Positions 3,030-31,612 of a DNA stretch of 64,000 bases are shown in pieces. The notes below the pieces were generated by a model, which did not search any database, was not told where the DNA came from, and saw nothing but the letters and a program-made list of their open reading frames with translations. Positions within the stretch are counted from its first letter, which is position 1; each line of letters begins with the position of its first letter. Source of the stretch: Candidatus Saccharimonadota bacterium (GTDB taxonomy: Bacteria > Patescibacteriota > Saccharimonadia > Saccharimonadales > UBA4665); NCBI GenBank assembly GCA_029288485.1, contig JARIHC010000006.1, forward strand, positions 1 to 64,000. The letters are read 5' to 3'. Position numbers and translations under genes: made by a program.

Positions 3030-3284
3030 CTACTGTTGTGACGGGTTTCTGAATGGATCTGGATTGGCGTTTTGGCCAATTGTAATAAGTTGAGTTGGGT
3101 CGAAGGCCTGATTATTGAAGTATCGGCTATCCGGCTTTGGGAAATCAGTCGTAATTGGCTGGACCACTTCCACCTGTTGCTGCCGGTTTTTAGGAGAAGC
3201 GAATATCTTGTTGGAAGCAAAGTACGAAACAACTCCGGCAAAAGCTACGATTAAAATAATCAGGGCAATGTCTTTTTGCTTCAT
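3030..3284 (-). CDS. Small single-pass membrane protein of the pilus operon
   Basis: 84 residues with a short cytoplasmic start (MKQKD), one hydrophobic segment at about residues 6-24 and a polar tail rich in Asn, Gln and Pro. I recognise no family. Its ATG overlaps the pilO stop (ATGA), so it is translated with pilO, and it occupies the place where diderm pilus operons carry pilP. It has no lipobox and no resemblance to PilP that I can see. A role as a small partner of the PilM-N-O platform in a monoderm cell is inference from position and topology. Confidence 0.7.
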   Translation of the reverse strand: MKQKDIALIILIVAFAGVVSYFASNKIFASPKNRQQQVEVVQPITTDFPKPDSRYFNNQAFDPTQLITIGQNANPDPFRNPSQQ

Positions 3285-3955
3285 TTCACTACCTGCGTGG
3301 TTATACTTACCTTCTTAGCCGGCTGGTAATACGTGTGCGCGGTAACGGTAACTGTCATGTTGCTTTGGCCACCACTTATATCAAGCGTATCGATCTGGAG
3401 AGGGCGGATAGATTGCTGCAGCTTAGCTAGCAATTGGTCGACCGACTGATAGTTGGCGTTACTTACGGTGAAAGAAAATGGCATTTGGACTGGTTGAGGG
3501 TTAGCACTAGCTGTGTTACCCTGTTGATTCAATTGGTCATCGGTACCGGAAATACTGGTAACTTGCAGGTGATTATCGGACAGTATTTTCTCAATGCTAG
3601 AAGTAAGCGCCGGGAAATCATAGCGATCCGGCAGAGCATCAAGAATGATCTTAGAATTGGGCCCGTCGTTATCACCAGTACCATTTTTATTGCCGCCAAT
3701 GATATTAGTGGAAGCTGAGTCAAAAGCTTTATAAGCAGTTGCTAGACCATTGTAGTTATTGATATTTTGCTCAAGTTGTTTGTGGGCCGCTTCTTTGGCG
3801 CTAATTACCCTTGCCTGGTAGCGGTTCTGACTAAAGACTGTTTTAGAAGCCACGAGACAAAAGACTGTTACAAACGACGCGATTGCTACAGCAGCTACCA
3901 TTTGTGCGTTAGCTTTACTAATAGCTAACCGTTTGGTCGATAATGCTTTGTCCAT
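3281..3955 (-). CDS. pilO: PilO-like pilus alignment protein
   Basis: 224 residues. One transmembrane helix at about residues 19-40 is followed by a coiled stretch (EAAHKQLEQNINNYNGL) and an extracytoplasmic alpha/beta domain ending in a strand-rich segment. This layout is that of PilO, which pairs with PilN to link the cytoplasmic PilM ring to the pilus. Sequence similarity to PilO is weak by eye and the call leans on topology and operon order. Its ATG overlaps the pilN stop by one base (TAATG), and its own TGA overlaps the next start. Confidence 0.8.
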   Translation of the reverse strand: MDKALSTKRLAISKANAQMVAAVAIASFVTVFCLVASKTVFSQNRYQARVISAKEAAHKQLEQNINNYNGLATAYKAFDSASTNIIGGNKNGTGDNDGPNSKIILDALPDRYDFPALTSSIEKILSDNHLQVTSISGTDDQLNQQGNTASANPQPVQMPFSFTVSNANYQSVDQLLAKLQQSIRPLQIDTLDISGGQSNMTVTVTAHTYYQPAKKVSITTQVVK

Positions 3956-4650
3956 TATTGGCCTCCTTTAGCCGGTGCGGCTTTGAAAAGGTCATTAGCT
4001 TGATTGCTGTCCAGACGAGTGGTCGTAATATTCGGCACCGCTAACTTGACGTTTTGGGTGATGTCAAAGATCGGCTTGTCATAAGAGAGGCTAATAGTAT
4101 AGTTAGCAGCCTGGCCAGCATCTTGAGAGTCAGTATTAAGACTAAAACTGCTTAGCACGACATTGCTAAAGGCTTGCTGAAGATCGTTATTGCTATCAGT
4201 AGAGTACTTAGTGTTCTTTAGTGTATCAACGTATTGGTTAACGCTTGCTAAGCTGCCTGAGGTACCAGTAATAGTAGCTGTTTGCTGGCCGTAGTCGACA
4301 GTAAAGTCAGTTATATTAACACTTGCTGGTGTCACCTGGTTTAGATAACCAATTAAGCGCGCTGCGGCGGGTTTGCTGGCATGTAGGTCAGTTAGGCTTT
4401 GAAGCTGGTTCTGGACTGTTAACATCTTGTTTATCTGAGGTTCGTGCTGAAGTTTGTTGCCTTCCGCTTTAATGTCATTGGTTAAATCGCCGAGATGCTT
4501 TCTTTGCAAGCCGTCAACGCTTAACAGTAGTAGCAGTAACGCCACTGCCACTATAGTTACCAGCGCGGAGACTGTGATCACTAGCCGCCTTACGCGCTCG
4601 GCTTTGATATACTCCATTTTTACAGCTGGCAAAAGGTTTAACTGCATCAT
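3955..4650 (-). CDS. pilN: PilN-like fimbrial assembly protein
   Basis: 231 residues. It starts MMQLNLLPAVKMEYIKAER, the N-L-L-P signature through which PilN tails bind PilM. A transmembrane helix follows at about residues 23-46, then a coiled coil and an extracytoplasmic ferredoxin-like region (VNITDFTVDYGQQTATITG). The ATG overlaps the pilM stop as ATGA, indicating translational coupling. It is expected to form a heterodimer with PilO outside the membrane. The family call is firm on motif and order. Confidence 0.88.
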   Translation of the reverse strand: MMQLNLLPAVKMEYIKAERVRRLVITVSALVTIVAVALLLLLLSVDGLQRKHLGDLTNDIKAEGNKLQHEPQINKMLTVQNQLQSLTDLHASKPAAARLIGYLNQVTPASVNITDFTVDYGQQTATITGTSGSLASVNQYVDTLKNTKYSTDSNNDLQQAFSNVVLSSFSLNTDSQDAGQAANYTISLSYDKPIFDITQNVKLAVPNITTTRLDSNQANDLFKAAPAKGGQ

Positions 4651-5690
4651 GAATTCCTCTCCGCCAGACCTGCGGCCACGCTAAACTGATTTGAGATTGC
4701 CAGCATTTCATTCTGTCGATCTTGGCTGAACGTTACATTGCGCCAGGCGTTGCCAATTTCTACATTGATACCGAATTTATTAGCTATGTACAGAGGAAAT
4801 TCAGGGACTACAGCCGCACCGCCAGTTACTACGGCCTTCTCGACTTTGATGTTTGTATAGCGTGTTTGAAAGAACTTAATAGACTTTTCTACTTCGGTAA
4901 CTAATAAATCTACAGTACCGCTGATGGCTTGAAAGATTTGACCTTCTAGCTTCTCTCGGCTGAGGCCAAACTTAAACACAAATTGCTCTGCTTGTTTGTT
5001 ATCGATGTTGAGTGTTTGAGAAGCGGCTTTTAAGAAAGACTCTATGCCGGTTGGAATGCTGCGTGTTAGATGCGGCGCACCGTTTAAGACAATTACTAGG
5101 TCAGTGGAGCGGTGGCCAACATCTAATAGTAGCTGGGCGCCAGGAGTATCCGGCGTTGTTAGGGCGCGCGCCATAGCCAAGTTGTCGGGCTCAAAAGCCA
5201 TGACGTTTAAGCCAATAGACTCCAGCATATCTAGTCGGTCTTCTACGAATTTATTAGTGACACTTGTAAGCAATATTTCTTGTTTGCTTTTATCGGCCGG
5301 TGAATCGCCGAGTAATGCCCAGTCGATAGTTGATTCGCTGAGCGGCGTTGGGATTAGAGCATCGGCCTGCAATGGTATAGCCTTGGCAAGCTCGTTAGGC
5401 GGCAAACGGTCTACGTCGGCCACGGTCGTGAAGACCCGGCTGGAAGGTATGCCGACAGCTACGTTCTTGGTTGTGACGCGGGCTTGGCTAACGAGTTGGG
5501 CGATCATCTGAGCCAATTTTTGCTGGTCGCTCTTAGCGTCGCTTAACGCCGTAGCAGGATCTACCGGCACATAAGCATATTTTAATAAGGCTTTGGCATT
5601 GCTTGGGCCCTGGAGTTGCACCAAGCGTACCGCCGTAGTACCAATGTCTAACCCAAAAAAGTCCGAAGTCGAACCGAGCAACAAGCTCAT
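4647..5690 (-). CDS. pilM: Actin-like pilus assembly ATPase PilM
   Basis: 347 residues of the FtsA/PilM actin-like fold, a cytoplasmic ring component that binds PilN. Visible are phosphate-1 (FFGLDIGTTAVRLVQL), the middle DVGHRSTDLVIVLNG phosphate-2 loop and the adenosine motif VVTGGAAVVPEF. It is the first annotated gene of the pilus operon. The ATG overlaps the TGA of an 11-codon upstream ORF (5687-5722), and GAGG lies 8 nt before it. No PilP or PilQ follows, as expected for a cell without an outer membrane. Confidence 0.93.
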   Translation of the reverse strand: MSLLLGSTSDFFGLDIGTTAVRLVQLQGPSNAKALLKYAYVPVDPATALSDAKSDQQKLAQMIAQLVSQARVTTKNVAVGIPSSRVFTTVADVDRLPPNELAKAIPLQADALIPTPLSESTIDWALLGDSPADKSKQEILLTSVTNKFVEDRLDMLESIGLNVMAFEPDNLAMARALTTPDTPGAQLLLDVGHRSTDLVIVLNGAPHLTRSIPTGIESFLKAASQTLNIDNKQAEQFVFKFGLSREKLEGQIFQAISGTVDLLVTEVEKSIKFFQTRYTNIKVEKAVVTGGAAVVPEFPLYIANKFGINVEIGNAWRNVTFSQDRQNEMLAISNQFSVAAGLAERNS

Positions 5691-5722
5691 ACTGCAACCT
5701 CGCTAGCGATTGAGGCGTTCAT
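5687..5722 (-). CDS. Candidate leaderless upstream ORF coupled to pilM
   Basis: An 11-codon frame, MNASIASEVAV, begins 7 nt after a TGG-TATAAT extended -10 box (5730-5738) and ends in a TGA that overlaps the pilM ATG as ATGA. That -10 to ATG spacing equals the one seen at many other starts in this window, so transcription would begin at or next to this ATG. No Shine-Dalgarno site precedes it. It could act as a ribosome-loading leader that feeds pilM by termination-reinitiation. Chance occurrence is not excluded; conservation in relatives would decide. Confidence 0.5.
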   Translation of the reverse strand: MNASIASEVAV

Positions 5723-5729
5723 GTCTCGG

Positions 5730-5738
5730 ATTATACCA
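5730..5738 (-). promoter_or_regulatory. Extended -10 promoter of the pilus operon
   Basis: Minus-strand TGGTATAAT is a consensus extended -10 element. No convincing -35 lies 16-18 nt upstream. The predicted start of transcription is at or next to the ATG of the 11-codon ORF at 5722. Confidence 0.6.
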
Positions 5739-5878
5739 TAAGCATTATGGCTGTATTGGCTATCTTGCCCACCCGTGTTTAGCATATTTTCGTTTTCGCC
5801 TGTTATTGATTTACCTCTGTTTGCAAGTATAACAAACATAAGCGGTTAAAGTCCAGTGTTCGCCGCAGTAAATTATCT

Positions 5879-8800
5879 CTACAGAACCGGTGGTAAGTTG
5901 GTCATCGCCTGCCACTGTATCACACCGCCGCCCGGAGGCTGAACTGCTGGGCTGGTTAGGTACAGCGCCGGGCTGTATTCAAATATCTCGGCAGCGCAAG
6001 CTTTGCTATCAGTTTCGGTGCCTTTATTGCTGCAGGCCGTAAATGGCGGCCCTTTGGGTGTTGGTCCTGTGGAGCCGGATGTATTAACACATAGATAGTA
6101 TCCCGACTGCCAGTTAGCATCATGATCAGCCAATTCATTAATCTTCACACACCCCGCACCACCGGCAGAACCAAAACTCAAACCGATATTTTGATCGCTG
6201 CAAAGCCAGTTATCTGCCCATGTGTCCGGATCTCCTGGAACGTTCCACTGAGTACAATAGGGGTACTTCTTGCCTCCAGGAGTACCAACACCGTTTTTTA
6301 TACTATTTAGATATAGCACGCCTGGATCCCCGGCTACGCTCCCTGCACTTTGGTCGCAACCGCTGTAGTTCTCGCAGTGCGTCCAATACAAGTTCACGCT
6401 CGATGAGTTGGGCACACAGATCTTATTGTCAGACCAGCCGTTCGTATCGCTAGGCTCATTGACGGCTGTGCAACGAAGCGTAGATAACTGGGCACTACTC
6501 GGACATGACTCGCCAGCTAAGCCGGCGCCAGCGGTGCCGCAACTGCTCCAAGTAAGATCAACCGCCGGCGTGCCGCCAGGCGAACCCGGATTTGGTTCTT
6601 CGTCGCGCAAAGAGCCAAAGGTACGCATTAGGTTAACCTGGTCGGCCACGAAGCTTCCATAAACCACTAGCTGGTTGTTGCATGTATATAAATCGTGAGC
6701 AGACATTGGAGTAAAGCCGTTGGCACAGGTATAGATTTTACCGCCGGTGCCGCTGCTGTTTTTCTGAGCAATATATAGGCCAGACAAGGTAGTGACGCTT
6801 GGCTTTATATATATGCTGCCAGTAGCATGCAGGACGAATGATGGCGCTGTGCCGGCGGTCCAGCCAGTACCGTAATTTATAGGGCCTGTTATGTAAACAT
6901 TACCGTCCACAAAGACCGACACATTATGTCCGGCAGCTAAAGTGCCGCCGCGAATTGTCAAATCGCCAGAGCGTTTGTAGGCGCCGCTCATGCTGCCAAG
7001 CGCAGGCGCAGTTAAGGTCGCATTTCCAAGTGTTGGCGCTGTTGGCGGTGCCGATTCATTGGTCAGCGTTCGGCAGCCATCAAAGTTACCTCCAAGCACC
7101 GGACTTTCCCTGCTGGCGCTGTCTACCGTAACGTTATGATTAGCAAACGTTAAGTTAGTTGGAGGCCGATTGATGTTTTGCGGATTACGGCCAACTATAC
7201 TCTGAGCACTGGCTACGCCGGTAATTTTAATTAATGCGAGAGCGCTCAGTTCGGAGCTAGAACCGCGGGTAGCACCGGCCGGATCGCTAATATCAGCGTA
7301 GCCAGCCAACGTACCGCCGCCGCCATGGGCATTATCTAAGCACTGATCAAACTCGCCGCCAGTAAATATATCTCCGTTATAGACCTTAAAGTAAGGTTCG
7401 TTAACTACGCGCGGGCATTTAGAGTCCTGGGCCGGACCGACGCCAAATATTACGTTGCTGTCTGGCCCTACATAACCACCTGAATATTGAGCGCTGACCT
7501 CGCTGCAGTACTCGTCGCCAGCCACGTAAGAACCTGGCGCTATTGCACAGCTATGCGACCAAACAGTGTAATAGTCTGGTGGATTCGGCGAAGGAATATT
7601 CCAGGAACCCTGCGAGTAGGAAGATGGTGCGCAAGGTGTGCTTATAGCACCGCTGGGCGTTTTCTTGTAGAGCGAAGCCGAAACTGTGTCGTTAACACTG
7701 TGGCTGAAATTGGCAGGAGGATTAACCCAGTGGAAGGTTATTGTCGCACCGTAATTGACGGTATTGGGATGTTCAATAGTCGGCGAGAGATCGGACTGGG
7801 CGCCAATCGATGAAACAGTAAATTGTTGATAGACATTCGGAGATATCCCACAGCCTGACATATTACTCTCTGACCCATTATATTGAGGCGTAAGGGTTTT
7901 ACTATATGTCTCCACGTCGCTCGGCGCCGCCAAATTTATATCAAAATCGTAGGAGTATCCGTTGTAAGGCACAAAGCCTAAGTTTTTAGTACCATCTGGG
8001 GTATCTAAATAGGCGCCAGCTAACATGTCCAGGTAGTCAGGCGGCGGACTGGTATTAGTAAAGGTACCGTGCACATGTATAGTGCCTCCCGCCAAGACAA
8101 TACCGCCAGGACCATCACCATATACCGATGTTATAGAGCACTGAGCACTAAAACAACTTATGGTTTGAGGGCTAGAACTCCAGGCGAAATGATTGTCAGC
8201 TGTCCGATACAGGTACTGAGTAGCACCGTTACTCCACGTACTGCCACTAAGCGTGTCTGTCCTATAGGTGACAGTAATAGAGTTAGCACTTGGCCAGTAA
8301 GTCCACTCTTTGGACACAGTCATATTTGTTTCGCCGTTCTGCGCAGGAGCACCGGCAACGTCTGGGTTGTCAGGAGGGTCACCCCCAGTACCCGGGCCTA
8401 CAAAACTATTTACGTTGCTTTGACTGAGACCAGTCCACCACTTGCTATTACTTCCATCACTGTGCTGATAGTGAACTTTGTTGACCGTAACATTGCTGAC
8501 GGTGACATATGTCCTTGTCTTTGTGCTGCCAGCAGCTTCAGTAATAGACAGGTTCCTACAGGCGCCTACAGCAGACGGTTGCGGCGGCGGCCCTTCAGGC
8601 ACCCACACAAAAGTAAACCGCATATTGGCGCCGTTGGTGACAGGAAACTTAATATGTGTGGCGCCGCCACTATTGACGTTGCTATCAATAAGATTGAGAC
8701 CTGAATCGTACATTTCCCATCGGCCAGACTGCCCGCTAGGATTATCTATATGGGTAATTTGGAATATGTTATTGTTGCCGCTTGGGTTTTTACAATTCAA

Positions 8801-9241
8801 TACCCAGCCATTACCAACGTTACCGTCAATACCCGGTCCTAGCGCAATCCAGCCGGGACAATTAATTCCACCATCGCCGCTTAAGTGTGTGCCAAATTGA
8901 AAGTCCCCATGCTGCGGCCATTGATCAGTATTGCTAACACTACCGCCGCTACCAATTGGCCAGTGATATATCTGTGCGTTATCTGCCCACCCAGGAGCTG
9001 TTGATGTCAACGTGAAATGCGGATTAAGCAAGTTGCCACTTGTGTCGCGGGCCTTCATTACTAGAGACGACATCACGCCTGCACCTTCCCCGTCGCTGTC
9101 GTTTCCCCAGTCTCCGGGTACGCTGTCACCAGGTGGACAGTAAGTAGGCGCAGCAAGAGTTTTGCTATTGGACGACAGCACTAAACAGGCGCCGGTCATT
9201 ACCAAAGTTACAACTAGGAATTTAATAGCTAGCTTATACAT
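5879..9241 (-). CDS. Very large secreted surface protein of unknown function, Cys-containing
   Basis: About 1,120 residues from the ATG at 9241. A longer frame runs to 9334, but the chosen start gives a clean signal peptide (MYKLAIKFLVV... to TLAAP) and AAGG lies just before it. No family recognised. The mature part is rich in Gly, Ser, Thr, Asn and Trp. It looks like beta-rich domains, with a probable beta-helix near 6600-7000 (VFVDGNVYITG, LVVYGSFVADQVNL). Three segments in the C-terminal fifth share a Cys-x(18-20)-Cys pattern with an internal Trp. No sortase motif or C-terminal anchor is visible. It overlaps the SurA-like gene by 8 nt and lies 188 bases upstream of pilM on the same strand. 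A host-contact or pilus-associated adhesin is inference. Confidence 0.75.
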   Translation of the reverse strand: MYKLAIKFLVVTLVMTGACLVLSSNSKTLAAPTYCPPGDSVPGDWGNDSDGEGAGVMSSLVMKARDTSGNLLNPHFTLTSTAPGWADNAQIYHWPIGSGGSVSNTDQWPQHGDFQFGTHLSGDGGINCPGWIALGPGIDGNVGNGWVLNCKNPSGNNNIFQITHIDNPSGQSGRWEMYDSGLNLIDSNVNSGGATHIKFPVTNGANMRFTFVWVPEGPPPQPSAVGACRNLSITEAAGSTKTRTYVTVSNVTVNKVHYQHSDGSNSKWWTGLSQSNVNSFVGPGTGGDPPDNPDVAGAPAQNGETNMTVSKEWTYWPSANSITVTYRTDTLSGSTWSNGATQYLYRTADNHFAWSSSPQTISCFSAQCSITSVYGDGPGGIVLAGGTIHVHGTFTNTSPPPDYLDMLAGAYLDTPDGTKNLGFVPYNGYSYDFDINLAAPSDVETYSKTLTPQYNGSESNMSGCGISPNVYQQFTVSSIGAQSDLSPTIEHPNTVNYGATITFHWVNPPANFSHSVNDTVSASLYKKTPSGAISTPCAPSSYSQGSWNIPSPNPPDYYTVWSHSCAIAPGSYVAGDEYCSEVSAQYSGGYVGPDSNVIFGVGPAQDSKCPRVVNEPYFKVYNGDIFTGGEFDQCLDNAHGGGGTLAGYADISDPAGATRGSSSELSALALIKITGVASAQSIVGRNPQNINRPPTNLTFANHNVTVDSASRESPVLGGNFDGCRTLTNESAPPTAPTLGNATLTAPALGSMSGAYKRSGDLTIRGGTLAAGHNVSVFVDGNVYITGPINYGTGWTAGTAPSFVLHATGSIYIKPSVTTLSGLYIAQKNSSGTGGKIYTCANGFTPMSAHDLYTCNNQLVVYGSFVADQVNLMRTFGSLRDEEPNPGSPGGTPAVDLTWSSCGTAGAGLAGESCPSSAQLSTLRCTAVNEPSDTNGWSDNKICVPNSSSVNLYWTHCENYSGCDQSAGSVAGDPGVLYLNSIKNGVGTPGGKKYPYCTQWNVPGDPDTWADNWLCSDQNIGLSFGSAGGAGCVKINELADHDANWQSGYYLCVNTSGSTGPTPKGPPFTACSNKGTETDSKACAAEIFEYSPALYLTSPAVQPPGGGVIQWQAMTNLPPVL
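6086..6472 (-). repeat. Three Cys-Trp-Cys repeat units inside the large surface protein
   Basis: Units at 6413-6472, 6197-6256 and 6086-6151 encode CTAVNEPSDT...SDNKIC, CTQWNVPGDP...ADNWLC and CVKINELADH...SGYYLC. Each is 20-22 residues with Cys at both ends, an acidic centre, a central Trp and a hydrophobic residue before the last Cys. A looser match lies near 8792-8860 (C...IDGNVGNGWVLNC). Confidence 0.6.
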
Positions 9242-10193
9242 TGACCTTATATCCATAGTGCTTTTTAGCTTGCGCCAGCTGTTGCTGGAAGGTGGCATCG
9301 CTACCACCGCCCGAAACTTTATCCATTCTAACAACCAGGAAGTAAGATTCGGCGGTGCTGTTCTGATCAGTTGCAGAGTTTGACACTCTTACTACAAACG
9401 GCGAACTGAGCTGACCTGGTTTCATGCTAGTTATTTTTCCCCGGATAGATCTAGCTACTAGTAAGCCAATCTGCTTCAGCGGCCCATTGAATGAACTCGA
9501 ATGCTGCTGTGTCGAATAATAAGAATTCTCACCTACCATAGGATCGGCATGTTCCATCTGAATTGCCTGATCAAATGTGATCTTGCCGGATTTTATTTGA
9601 TTATATAAGTTGGTAATAAACTTCTGGGCGTATTGCTTATCCTGAGCTATAGCCGCCGGATTTCCTAATAACGGGTTGGCTTTTTGTTGTTCGGGCAGCA
9701 GGCCTGATTGGTATGGTACGTAGCGGCTAAAGTTAGCAACCAATAGTTTACCCTGGTAGACCCCTTCATTGTGGTTGTCCAGCTTCGTCAAGTAAAGCTG
9801 GTTTACTAAGTTTTGATAACCATACGGGTTGGTCTTTTTTTGCTTAGTGACACTAGACCCGTAAGCCTGTGTTATGTCAGCTTGAGTAACAGTCACATGA
9901 TATTGCTTGGCCATAGCCTCGGTAAGGTATTTATCGGCCAGCACGGTCGCCGCCTGGTGATCGCTAACTTTATTTTTTTTACCATCAGTCACCTGGAGGC
10001 TCTCTATATCTTTTTTGTATATCTTATGACCGGCCGCTTGGGCGTAGACTTTTTGACCTATATGCCCGGGGTGAGTTATCAGCACTATAGCCGCTATTAC
10101 TACAATACCGAGACCAATAAGAATCAAACGTCCCCTTTGACGATTACTAGGAGCAGGTTGTGCTGGTGGCGCTGAAATCTTTGTATCGGCCAT
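9234..10193 (-). CDS. Membrane-anchored SurA/PrsA-like foldase
   Basis: 319 residues. A short cytoplasmic Pro-rich start and an uncleaved helix (about residues 24-41, LILIGLGIVVIAAIVLI) precede a SurA_N-like helical domain (YKKDIESLQV ... TVTQADITQAYG) and a C-terminal region resembling a parvulin module (KITSMKPGQLSSPFVV, ESYFLVVRMDKV). Such proteins help secreted proteins fold outside the membrane. Whether the parvulin active site is intact cannot be judged by eye. Its last codons overlap the start of the giant secreted protein by 8 nt, so chaperone and probable client are co-translated. Confidence 0.75.
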   Translation of the reverse strand: MADTKISAPPAQPAPSNRQRGRLILIGLGIVVIAAIVLITHPGHIGQKVYAQAAGHKIYKKDIESLQVTDGKKNKVSDHQAATVLADKYLTEAMAKQYHVTVTQADITQAYGSSVTKQKKTNPYGYQNLVNQLYLTKLDNHNEGVYQGKLLVANFSRYVPYQSGLLPEQQKANPLLGNPAAIAQDKQYAQKFITNLYNQIKSGKITFDQAIQMEHADPMVGENSYYSTQQHSSSFNGPLKQIGLLVARSIRGKITSMKPGQLSSPFVVRVSNSATDQNSTAESYFLVVRMDKVSGGGSDATFQQQLAQAKKHYGYKVNV

Positions 10194-29545: not shown

Positions 29546-31612
29546 TTAGTCTATCCGAGCGTCTTGAGTGAGCAAGCGTTCGCGCATTTCCTGGAAGCGT
29601 TTTTGCTGCTCGGCAGCTACATCTTCGGCGTTTTTAGTCTTGTTCTGGTGAACAGTCTTAACGTCGCCCTTGCCACCGATCACGTTAACTACCGGAATCA
29701 CTATAGGGCTGCGTCCTGTGTGCTCAAACAGATAGTGCGTAACGTGGTCTTTTAGCTCGGCCTTAAAGCGGTCCAGATCAACGCGTTTGAAGCGCTGCTG
29801 AACAGCCCGCTTGAGTTCGGTGCGCAGACCGTTCATGATTTCTTCGTTGTCGCGCATGTAGATGAAGCCACGACTAATGATGTCAGGGCTGGTCAGCAGC
29901 GCGCCACCCTTCTTGTCAACGGTTAGAATCACGGCTACTAGACCCTCTTCGCTTAATAGAACTCTGTCTTTGACCACTACGTGGTTAACAATCGATCCTG
30001 TCTGATCTACCAAAACTGTCCCGTGCGGCACTTCACCGGCAATTTCCATCTTGTCTGGAGTAAGAGCGACAATCTGGCCGTTACCGGTGTTAAGCGTATT
30101 GGCGCGCGGTACCAGACCATCTTCGATCGCCAGATCTATGTAGCGCTGCTTGGAGCGGTACGGACCGTAAATCGGCACAAAGAATTTAGGTTTGGTCGCC
30201 TTGACCATCTCGGCGTATTCGTCGCGGCTAGCGTGGCCTGAAACGTGCAGCGGACCCATGCCGTCAATTTCGTGGTTGCGATGTTCAAACACATGCACGC
30301 CGCGCTTCATTAGATCGTCAACCATATCGCCGACCGACCGATCGTTGCCAGTCTCGGGAATCGGCGTACTAGATAGAATGACTGTATCCTGTTCTTTGAG
30401 CTTAATATTGCGGTGTTCACCAGTAGCCATACGCTGCAGAGCTGAGCTGGGTTCAGCCTGCGAGCCGGTACAGACCACTACCACATCCTGGTCTTTCATA
30501 TTGCCGACCGTAGCAATCGGTACAAAAGTGCCCTTCGGTACCTTCATGAAGCCATGGCGGATAGCCATTTCTAGAGTACTGACCATGCTGCGGCCGTCCA
30601 TAGCAATCTTTCGTCCATGATGTACAGCGGCATTAATGATCATCTGAATGCGGTTCATGTTGGTACTAAACACACCGACAAAGATCCGGCCTGGGGCCTG
30701 GTCAATTATATTGACGAAGCTTTTTTCTATCTCCGATTCACTTAATGTGCGGCCTGGCCGCTCGGTGCTGGTGCTCTCGCTTAGCAGTAGTAGAACGCCT
30801 TCGCGGCCAAGTTCTTCTAGGCGCTCCATATCGGTGCGCTCGTGGTCTAGCGGATTAGGGTCAAACCTAAAGTCACCGCTGTTAATTATCCGCCCGACCG
30901 GCGTATCCAACACAATACAAGTGCTGCCGGGAATAGAGTGTGTTATCCGTACTAGCTCAACAAAGAATTCGCCGATTTTCAGGCGTTCGTGGGTATTTTC
31001 GTTCATGGTAACGGTTTTTAGCTCAAAGCCATCGGGCATTGGCAGACCGAAGTTTTCAAAAATTTCCTCTACCCTGCCGATGGTAAATTTACTACCGTAA
31101 ATTGGAGCTGGGAGTTTGGGTACAATGTGCGGCAGCGCGCCAATGTGATCTAAGTGGCCATGTGTTATCACGTAAGCCTTCAGCTTGTGCTTAATACTTT
31201 CTAGGTAAGTAGTGTCGGCGATGGCATAGTTAATGCCTGGCAGGTCAATACCCAGCTCGACGCCGCAGTCCATGACAACGGCATCATCTTTATATTCCAC
31301 AAGGATCATGTTTTTGGAGCCGGCGCCGTCTTGGCCGCCCAGCGAGATTACTTTAAGCCGCGGGCTGTCATCTATCACGTTGGCCCGAGCCGGTTTTTTA
31401 GTTTGGTCAGCTGCTACGTACTGGCTAGCAATACGCTGCGCATCCTGCTGGCTGCGCCGCTGCGCTCGCACAGCCTGGCCACGCGAGGTTGTCAGGTTAC
31501 TGGAAATCGGTTTGCTGGCTTTGCTGTTGCCGCCAGCTTGGTTGTTTTTGCCGCCATTGCCGTTATTGCGCTTTGGCTGACGTTTGGGTTTATTGTTCTT
31601 ATTTGGTTGCAT
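29546..31612 (-). CDS. rnj: Ribonuclease J
   Basis: 688 residues. About 80 N-terminal residues are basic and low complexity. The metallo-beta-lactamase/beta-CASP catalytic core follows, with HGHLDH at 151-156, STSTERPGRT-type and GHASRDE beta-CASP motifs, and a C-terminal domain. All metal-binding His/Asp positions look intact. RNase J is a 5'-3' exo/endonuclease for mRNA decay and rRNA maturation. AAAGGAG lies before the ATG. It ends a minus-strand cluster that begins with rpsO and pnp, so both main RNA-decay nucleases may share transcription. Confidence 0.95.
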   Translation of the reverse strand: MQPNKNNKPKRQPKRNNGNGGKNNQAGGNSKASKPISSNLTTSRGQAVRAQRRSQQDAQRIASQYVAADQTKKPARANVIDDSPRLKVISLGGQDGAGSKNMILVEYKDDAVVMDCGVELGIDLPGINYAIADTTYLESIKHKLKAYVITHGHLDHIGALPHIVPKLPAPIYGSKFTIGRVEEIFENFGLPMPDGFELKTVTMNENTHERLKIGEFFVELVRITHSIPGSTCIVLDTPVGRIINSGDFRFDPNPLDHERTDMERLEELGREGVLLLLSESTSTERPGRTLSESEIEKSFVNIIDQAPGRIFVGVFSTNMNRIQMIINAAVHHGRKIAMDGRSMVSTLEMAIRHGFMKVPKGTFVPIATVGNMKDQDVVVVCTGSQAEPSSALQRMATGEHRNIKLKEQDTVILSSTPIPETGNDRSVGDMVDDLMKRGVHVFEHRNHEIDGMGPLHVSGHASRDEYAEMVKATKPKFFVPIYGPYRSKQRYIDLAIEDGLVPRANTLNTGNGQIVALTPDKMEIAGEVPHGTVLVDQTGSIVNHVVVKDRVLLSEEGLVAVILTVDKKGGALLTSPDIISRGFIYMRDNEEIMNGLRTELKRAVQQRFKRVDLDRFKAELKDHVTHYLFEHTGRSPIVIPVVNVIGGKGDVKTVHQNKTKNAEDVAAEQQKRFQEMRERLLTQDARID

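Follow-up and report, generated by a model that had tools for sequence, protein, structure and literature searches.

Mycobacteria possess leaderless small ORFs coupled through RTGA to the gene that follows, and this linkage is kept although the sequence is not (Shell et al. 2015, PMC4633059), while E. coli leadered mRNAs can harbor uORFs that open on a 5'-terminal uAUG (Beck et al. 2016, PMC4965119), and overlapping stop and start codons are known to give translational coupling (PMC12548453; PMC6728339). For the phylum to which Saccharibacteria belong, the open-access library searched yielded neither a paper on translation starts or leader ORFs nor any transcript start-site data. We find that the leader of pilM in the window, the whole 64,000-nucleotide stretch of DNA analyzed here, fits the RTGA class, with a stop that overlaps the gene start, a frame that is commoner than chance, a conserved position and a peptide that is not conserved. 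As in mycobacteria (PMC4633059), a short frame lies at or near the predicted transcript start, its TGA overlaps the start of the main gene, and the peptide is free to vary; the differences are that the phylum is another one and that the promoter lies inside the frame, so that a long and a short version would end at the same stop. The E. coli uORFs (PMC4965119) share with pilM an AUG at the 5' end, which is predicted here, and a separate Shine-Dalgarno sequence for the main gene, but the frame before pilM runs precisely up to the start of the gene, and relatives keep an equivalent of it. Described stop/start junctions (PMC12548453; PMC6728339) resemble this ATGA with its nearby Shine-Dalgarno sequence, a junction type that recurs in the pilus operon; here, however, what stands upstream is a leader frame that is not conserved, in place of a gene. 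What is unusual against all of these cases, as read from the DNA, is a promoter embedded in the frame and a frame kept across a clade of many genera. Such a clade-wide frame with an inner promoter suggests that initiation of the leaderless and coupled kind, as in mycobacteria, reaches into Patescibacteria.

The pilus operon and the pilM leader

The genome that contains the window (0.91 Mb) and its relatives are Saccharibacteria, tiny episymbiotic bacteria. These episymbionts use type IV pili to hold on to their hosts and to move on them, and the locus that TM7x numbers as one is, like that of the window, a pilus locus with a retraction ATPase (PMC12206443). If a leader ORF with an inner promoter is coupled to pilM throughout a clade, it offers a way to test what sets the level of pili. 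The type IV pilus assembly gene pilM (4647–5690, minus strand; PilM_2, PF11104, E = 6.4e-39) is the first large gene of a minus-strand pilM-pilN-pilO-x-pilB-pilT operon, in which Pfam identifies PilN (PF05137), a T2SSE protein with MshEN (the pilB-type ATPase) and a second T2SSE protein (the pilT-type ATPase); the third gene is pilO-like and the fourth is a small gene without assignment. The tight junctions described in the earlier note are all present, with pilM and pilN overlapping at 4650–4647, pilN and pilO sharing one base at 3955, and pilO and the next gene overlapping at 3284–3281. Upstream of pilM lies a gene for a large, secreted-looking protein (5879–9334, minus strand) that ends in NLPPVL and gave zero matches in a Pfam search. 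The gene preceding pilM in most relatives likewise ends in L(S/P)P(V/I)L. The frames at 5879–9334 and 9234–10193, both on the minus strand, share ~100 nt, which probably means that the TTG start assigned to the former lies too far upstream.

Reading down the minus strand, TGG (5738–5736) and TATAAT (5735–5730) are followed by CCGAGAC (5729–5723) and an ATG (5722–5720) that opens the 11 codons MNASIASEVAV (5687–5722), whose TGA (5689–5687) overlaps the pilM ATG (5690–5688) as ATGA; the earlier note had given these positions, the 7-nt spacing and the peptide exactly. This mini-ORF, with its own ATG at a leaderless distance from the -10 hexamer, is only the in-frame 3' third of a longer open frame, the leader ORF, which ends at the same TGA and runs for 32 codons (MLNTGGQDSQYSHNAYGIIRDMNASIASEVAV; 5687–5785, minus strand) from an ATG at 5785, or for 50 codons from an ATG at 5839. 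Since the frame is open from 5785 or 5839, the TATAAT, part of an extended -10 promoter that we call P2 (TGGTATAAT; 5730–5738, minus strand), sits inside it. The Shine-Dalgarno sequence of pilM, GAGG (5698–5701, minus strand), lies 7 nt before the pilM ATG, and the 16S tail of two relatives reads GGATTACCTCCTTT, with the anti-Shine-Dalgarno sequence intact; the 16S gene of this genome is absent from the assembly. A candidate upstream promoter, P1 (TGTTATACT; 5826–5834, minus strand), has TGGACT 18 nt before its hexamer and is a consensus match only, of a kind found twice where 1.8 are expected. In two other loci, L009 and L029, and perhaps in the window too (5834–5826), two copies of the pilM promoter flank the start of the leader ORF. 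The folding energies of leader RNA equal those of shuffled sequences (z of 0.10, -0.24 and 0.84), and a search for RNA structure shared among the leaders of relatives found none; we therefore rejected both a hairpin that masks GAGG and an attenuator or other structured leader.

A coupled frame in relatives

We compared ~70 orthologous pilM loci and scored 63 of them for a coupled frame, defined as one that starts with ATG, has at least 8 codons and ends exactly at the RTGA of pilM, with dinucleotide shuffles as controls, in which the close promoter block was left intact. The short frame that the earlier note proposed to look for upstream of pilM is indeed there, in 32 of 63 family loci compared with 8.3 ± 2.5 in shuffles. 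On the PilM tree the window belongs to a 17-member group (support 87, not starred), of which 16 members have enough upstream sequence to be checkable; all 16 have the coupled frame, versus 3.0 expected and a maximum of 10 in 3000 simulations. Frames that end likewise in the other two registers occur in 0/16 and 0/16 clade members, but stops in the promoter block cause part of this contrast, which makes the simulation with that block fixed the fairer test. An independent-pairs test on the PilM tree offered few supported pairs. Two loci, L018 and L019, are identical in the sequence upstream of pilM and in its start, though assigned to different genera (G009 and G055); G055 has several pilM copies, and the identity probably reflects mis-binning.

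The conserved frame is usually 19–38 codons long in the clade, and this range, together with its presence clade-wide, would suit a functional microprotein of the pilus system. We consider this very improbable, as substitutions in the leader peptides are spread evenly over the three codon positions (39/50/38) with no third-position excess, the recurrent AYxII is what the promoter spells when translated, and GG/RW comes from a single nucleotide motif in more than one reading frame. With peptides that vary in this way, the linkage and not the product is probably what is kept, and the identity of the mini-ORF codons, which had been proposed to set pilus expression, is unlikely to matter. With the arrangement kept by all checkable close relatives, pilM is probably fed by ribosomes leaving the short frame, and that some form of leader frame is coupled to pilM we regard as likely.

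Promoter position and leaderless starts

Nearly every one of the ~70 family members keeps the extended -10 sequence GCTTATGNTATAAT ahead of pilM, P2 being the copy in the window. Most family genomes start pilM 9, 10 or 12 nt after this -10, a spacing that predicts a pilM leader of ~2–6 nt and hence near-leaderless initiation in most relatives, and in sister Saccharibacteria families pilM itself stands at leaderless spacing, as is probably also the case in the lineage of the genetically tractable TM7x; in the window the distance is 39 nt. By this comparison, promoter and pilM have moved apart in the window lineage. The expectation that relatives would keep the spacing between the -10 and the mini-ORF is thus borne out for the extended -10 but not for the ATG, because the start codon 9–12 nt downstream in relatives is that of pilM itself. 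A leaderless 11-codon start occurs in none of the relatives compared, which include no genome of the same genus, so that from the original proposal of an 11-codon leaderless ORF at the head of the pilus operon the short ATGA-coupled frame survives clade-wide, while the conserved frame is longer and no relative is leaderless at that point. At 11 loci the promoter has been lost or stands at a distance from pilM, and a short frame ends at or beside the pilM start in 11/11; it ends at RTGA in nine (L005, L006, L007, L016, L025, L032, L053, L066 and L076) and 3–8 nt before the pilM start in the other two (L028 and L049).

These data bear on a rival account, in which an mRNA from P2 has an ordinary leader of ~32 nt, the 30S subunit binds GAGG and starts pilM directly, and both ATG 5722 and the frame are incidental. 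The ideal spacing of GAGG before pilM, the intact anti-Shine-Dalgarno sequence of two relatives and the ability of most relatives to start pilM without a leader frame are all consistent with it, but it leaves unexplained both the excess over shuffles in the clade and the short frame that ends at or beside the pilM start at every locus with a distant promoter. We judge it unlikely.

Is a leaderless start at 5722 plausible in this organism? In a genome sample of 324 kb (the window plus L096–L108; 313 frames of at least 100 codons), -10 hexamers peak 6 nt (15 cases) and 7 nt (18 cases) before ATGs in start regions, versus ~2.5 per position elsewhere, which confirms that leaderless spacing occurs here beyond chance. 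Exact TATAAT followed by 6–7 nt and an ATG leads into a frame of at least 60 codons in 15 of 19 cases, and leaderless mRNAs appear to be common in this Saccharibacterium. The -10 of the mini-ORF lies within this 6–7-nt range, its 7 nt being a modal leaderless distance of the genome, and the genomic peak makes a leaderless start at 5722 credible; we think that it is somewhat more probably used than not. The longer pattern, TGNTATAAT followed by 6–7 nt and an ATG, occurs four times in the 324 kb, and the window mini-ORF is the only one of the four that opens a short frame. Coupled leader ORFs precede 9 of 113 eligible RTGA starts genome-wide, several of these being probably wrong starts, and the arrangement is therefore not a general habit of this genome. 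A second candidate for a leaderless coupled frame, at C2:119561, was discarded, since it falls inside a large oxidase-like gene.

The 7-nt spacing, together with the 9–12 nt that separate pilM of relatives from the same -10, would also fit a mini-ORF that acts alone, as a leaderless regulatory uORF of this lineage that was born when a short insertion pushed pilM away from the promoter that had made it near-leaderless, with no translation farther upstream. The frame, however, stays open far beyond 5722 on the upstream side, and this upstream portion, including an ATG close to the GGTGGG element described below, occurs in most clade relatives; we therefore hold this reading to be quite improbable. 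The explanation that we favor, with reasonable though incomplete confidence, is translational coupling of pilM to a leader ORF that exists in two forms, one of 32 codons and a leaderless one of 11 codons. Transcripts from upstream would carry the 32-codon frame from 5785, whereas those from the embedded P2 would begin leaderless at ATG 5722; ribosomes on either form would terminate at the TGA within ATGA and begin again on the pilM ATG that overlaps it, aided by GAGG, and this coupling would set pilus levels. Some observations count against this explanation: the GAGG of pilM could suffice, the close promoter of many relatives would start pilM near-leaderless and bypass the frame, and the coupled frame is missing from half of the family. 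As pilM has its own Shine-Dalgarno sequence, coupling need not be the sole entry.

The GGTGGG element of two pilus loci

A GGTGGG element (5768–5773, minus strand) lies near the start of the leader ORF, and the clade conserves it although its reading frame varies; GGTGG is found near the start of the leader frame in 14 of 16 clade members, in different frames, and 14 of 21 leaders of pilM2, in a second pilus locus, have it at the pilM2 start or directly ahead of it. This raises the speculative and rather doubtful idea that the GGTGGG of the pilM1 and pilM2 leaders is a shared RNA or DNA site, through which one factor would set initiation at both pilus operons, the coupled leader ORF relaying control to pilM1. 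The element was noticed before it was counted, and its evidence weighs less than the frame test for that reason. Three other roles were rejected. As a general promoter-linked motif, GGTGGG gives 29 genome hits, most of them unrelated, compared with 46 for the reversed control; as a Shine-Dalgarno sequence, it is a poor fit to the 16S tail GGATTACCTCC and is often located after the ATG; and conserved GGTGG/CCRCC pairing with the end of the upstream gene is confined to a few loci, with z near 0. In this genome (L002; C7, ~30740–30830) and in L111–L130, the extended form GGTGGG(C/T)A is conserved, either at the start of pilM2 or immediately ahead of it. At five pilM2 loci (L112, L114, L116, L117 and L123), the GTG within GGTGGG opens a frame of 2–5 codons that ends at the pilM2 ATGA.
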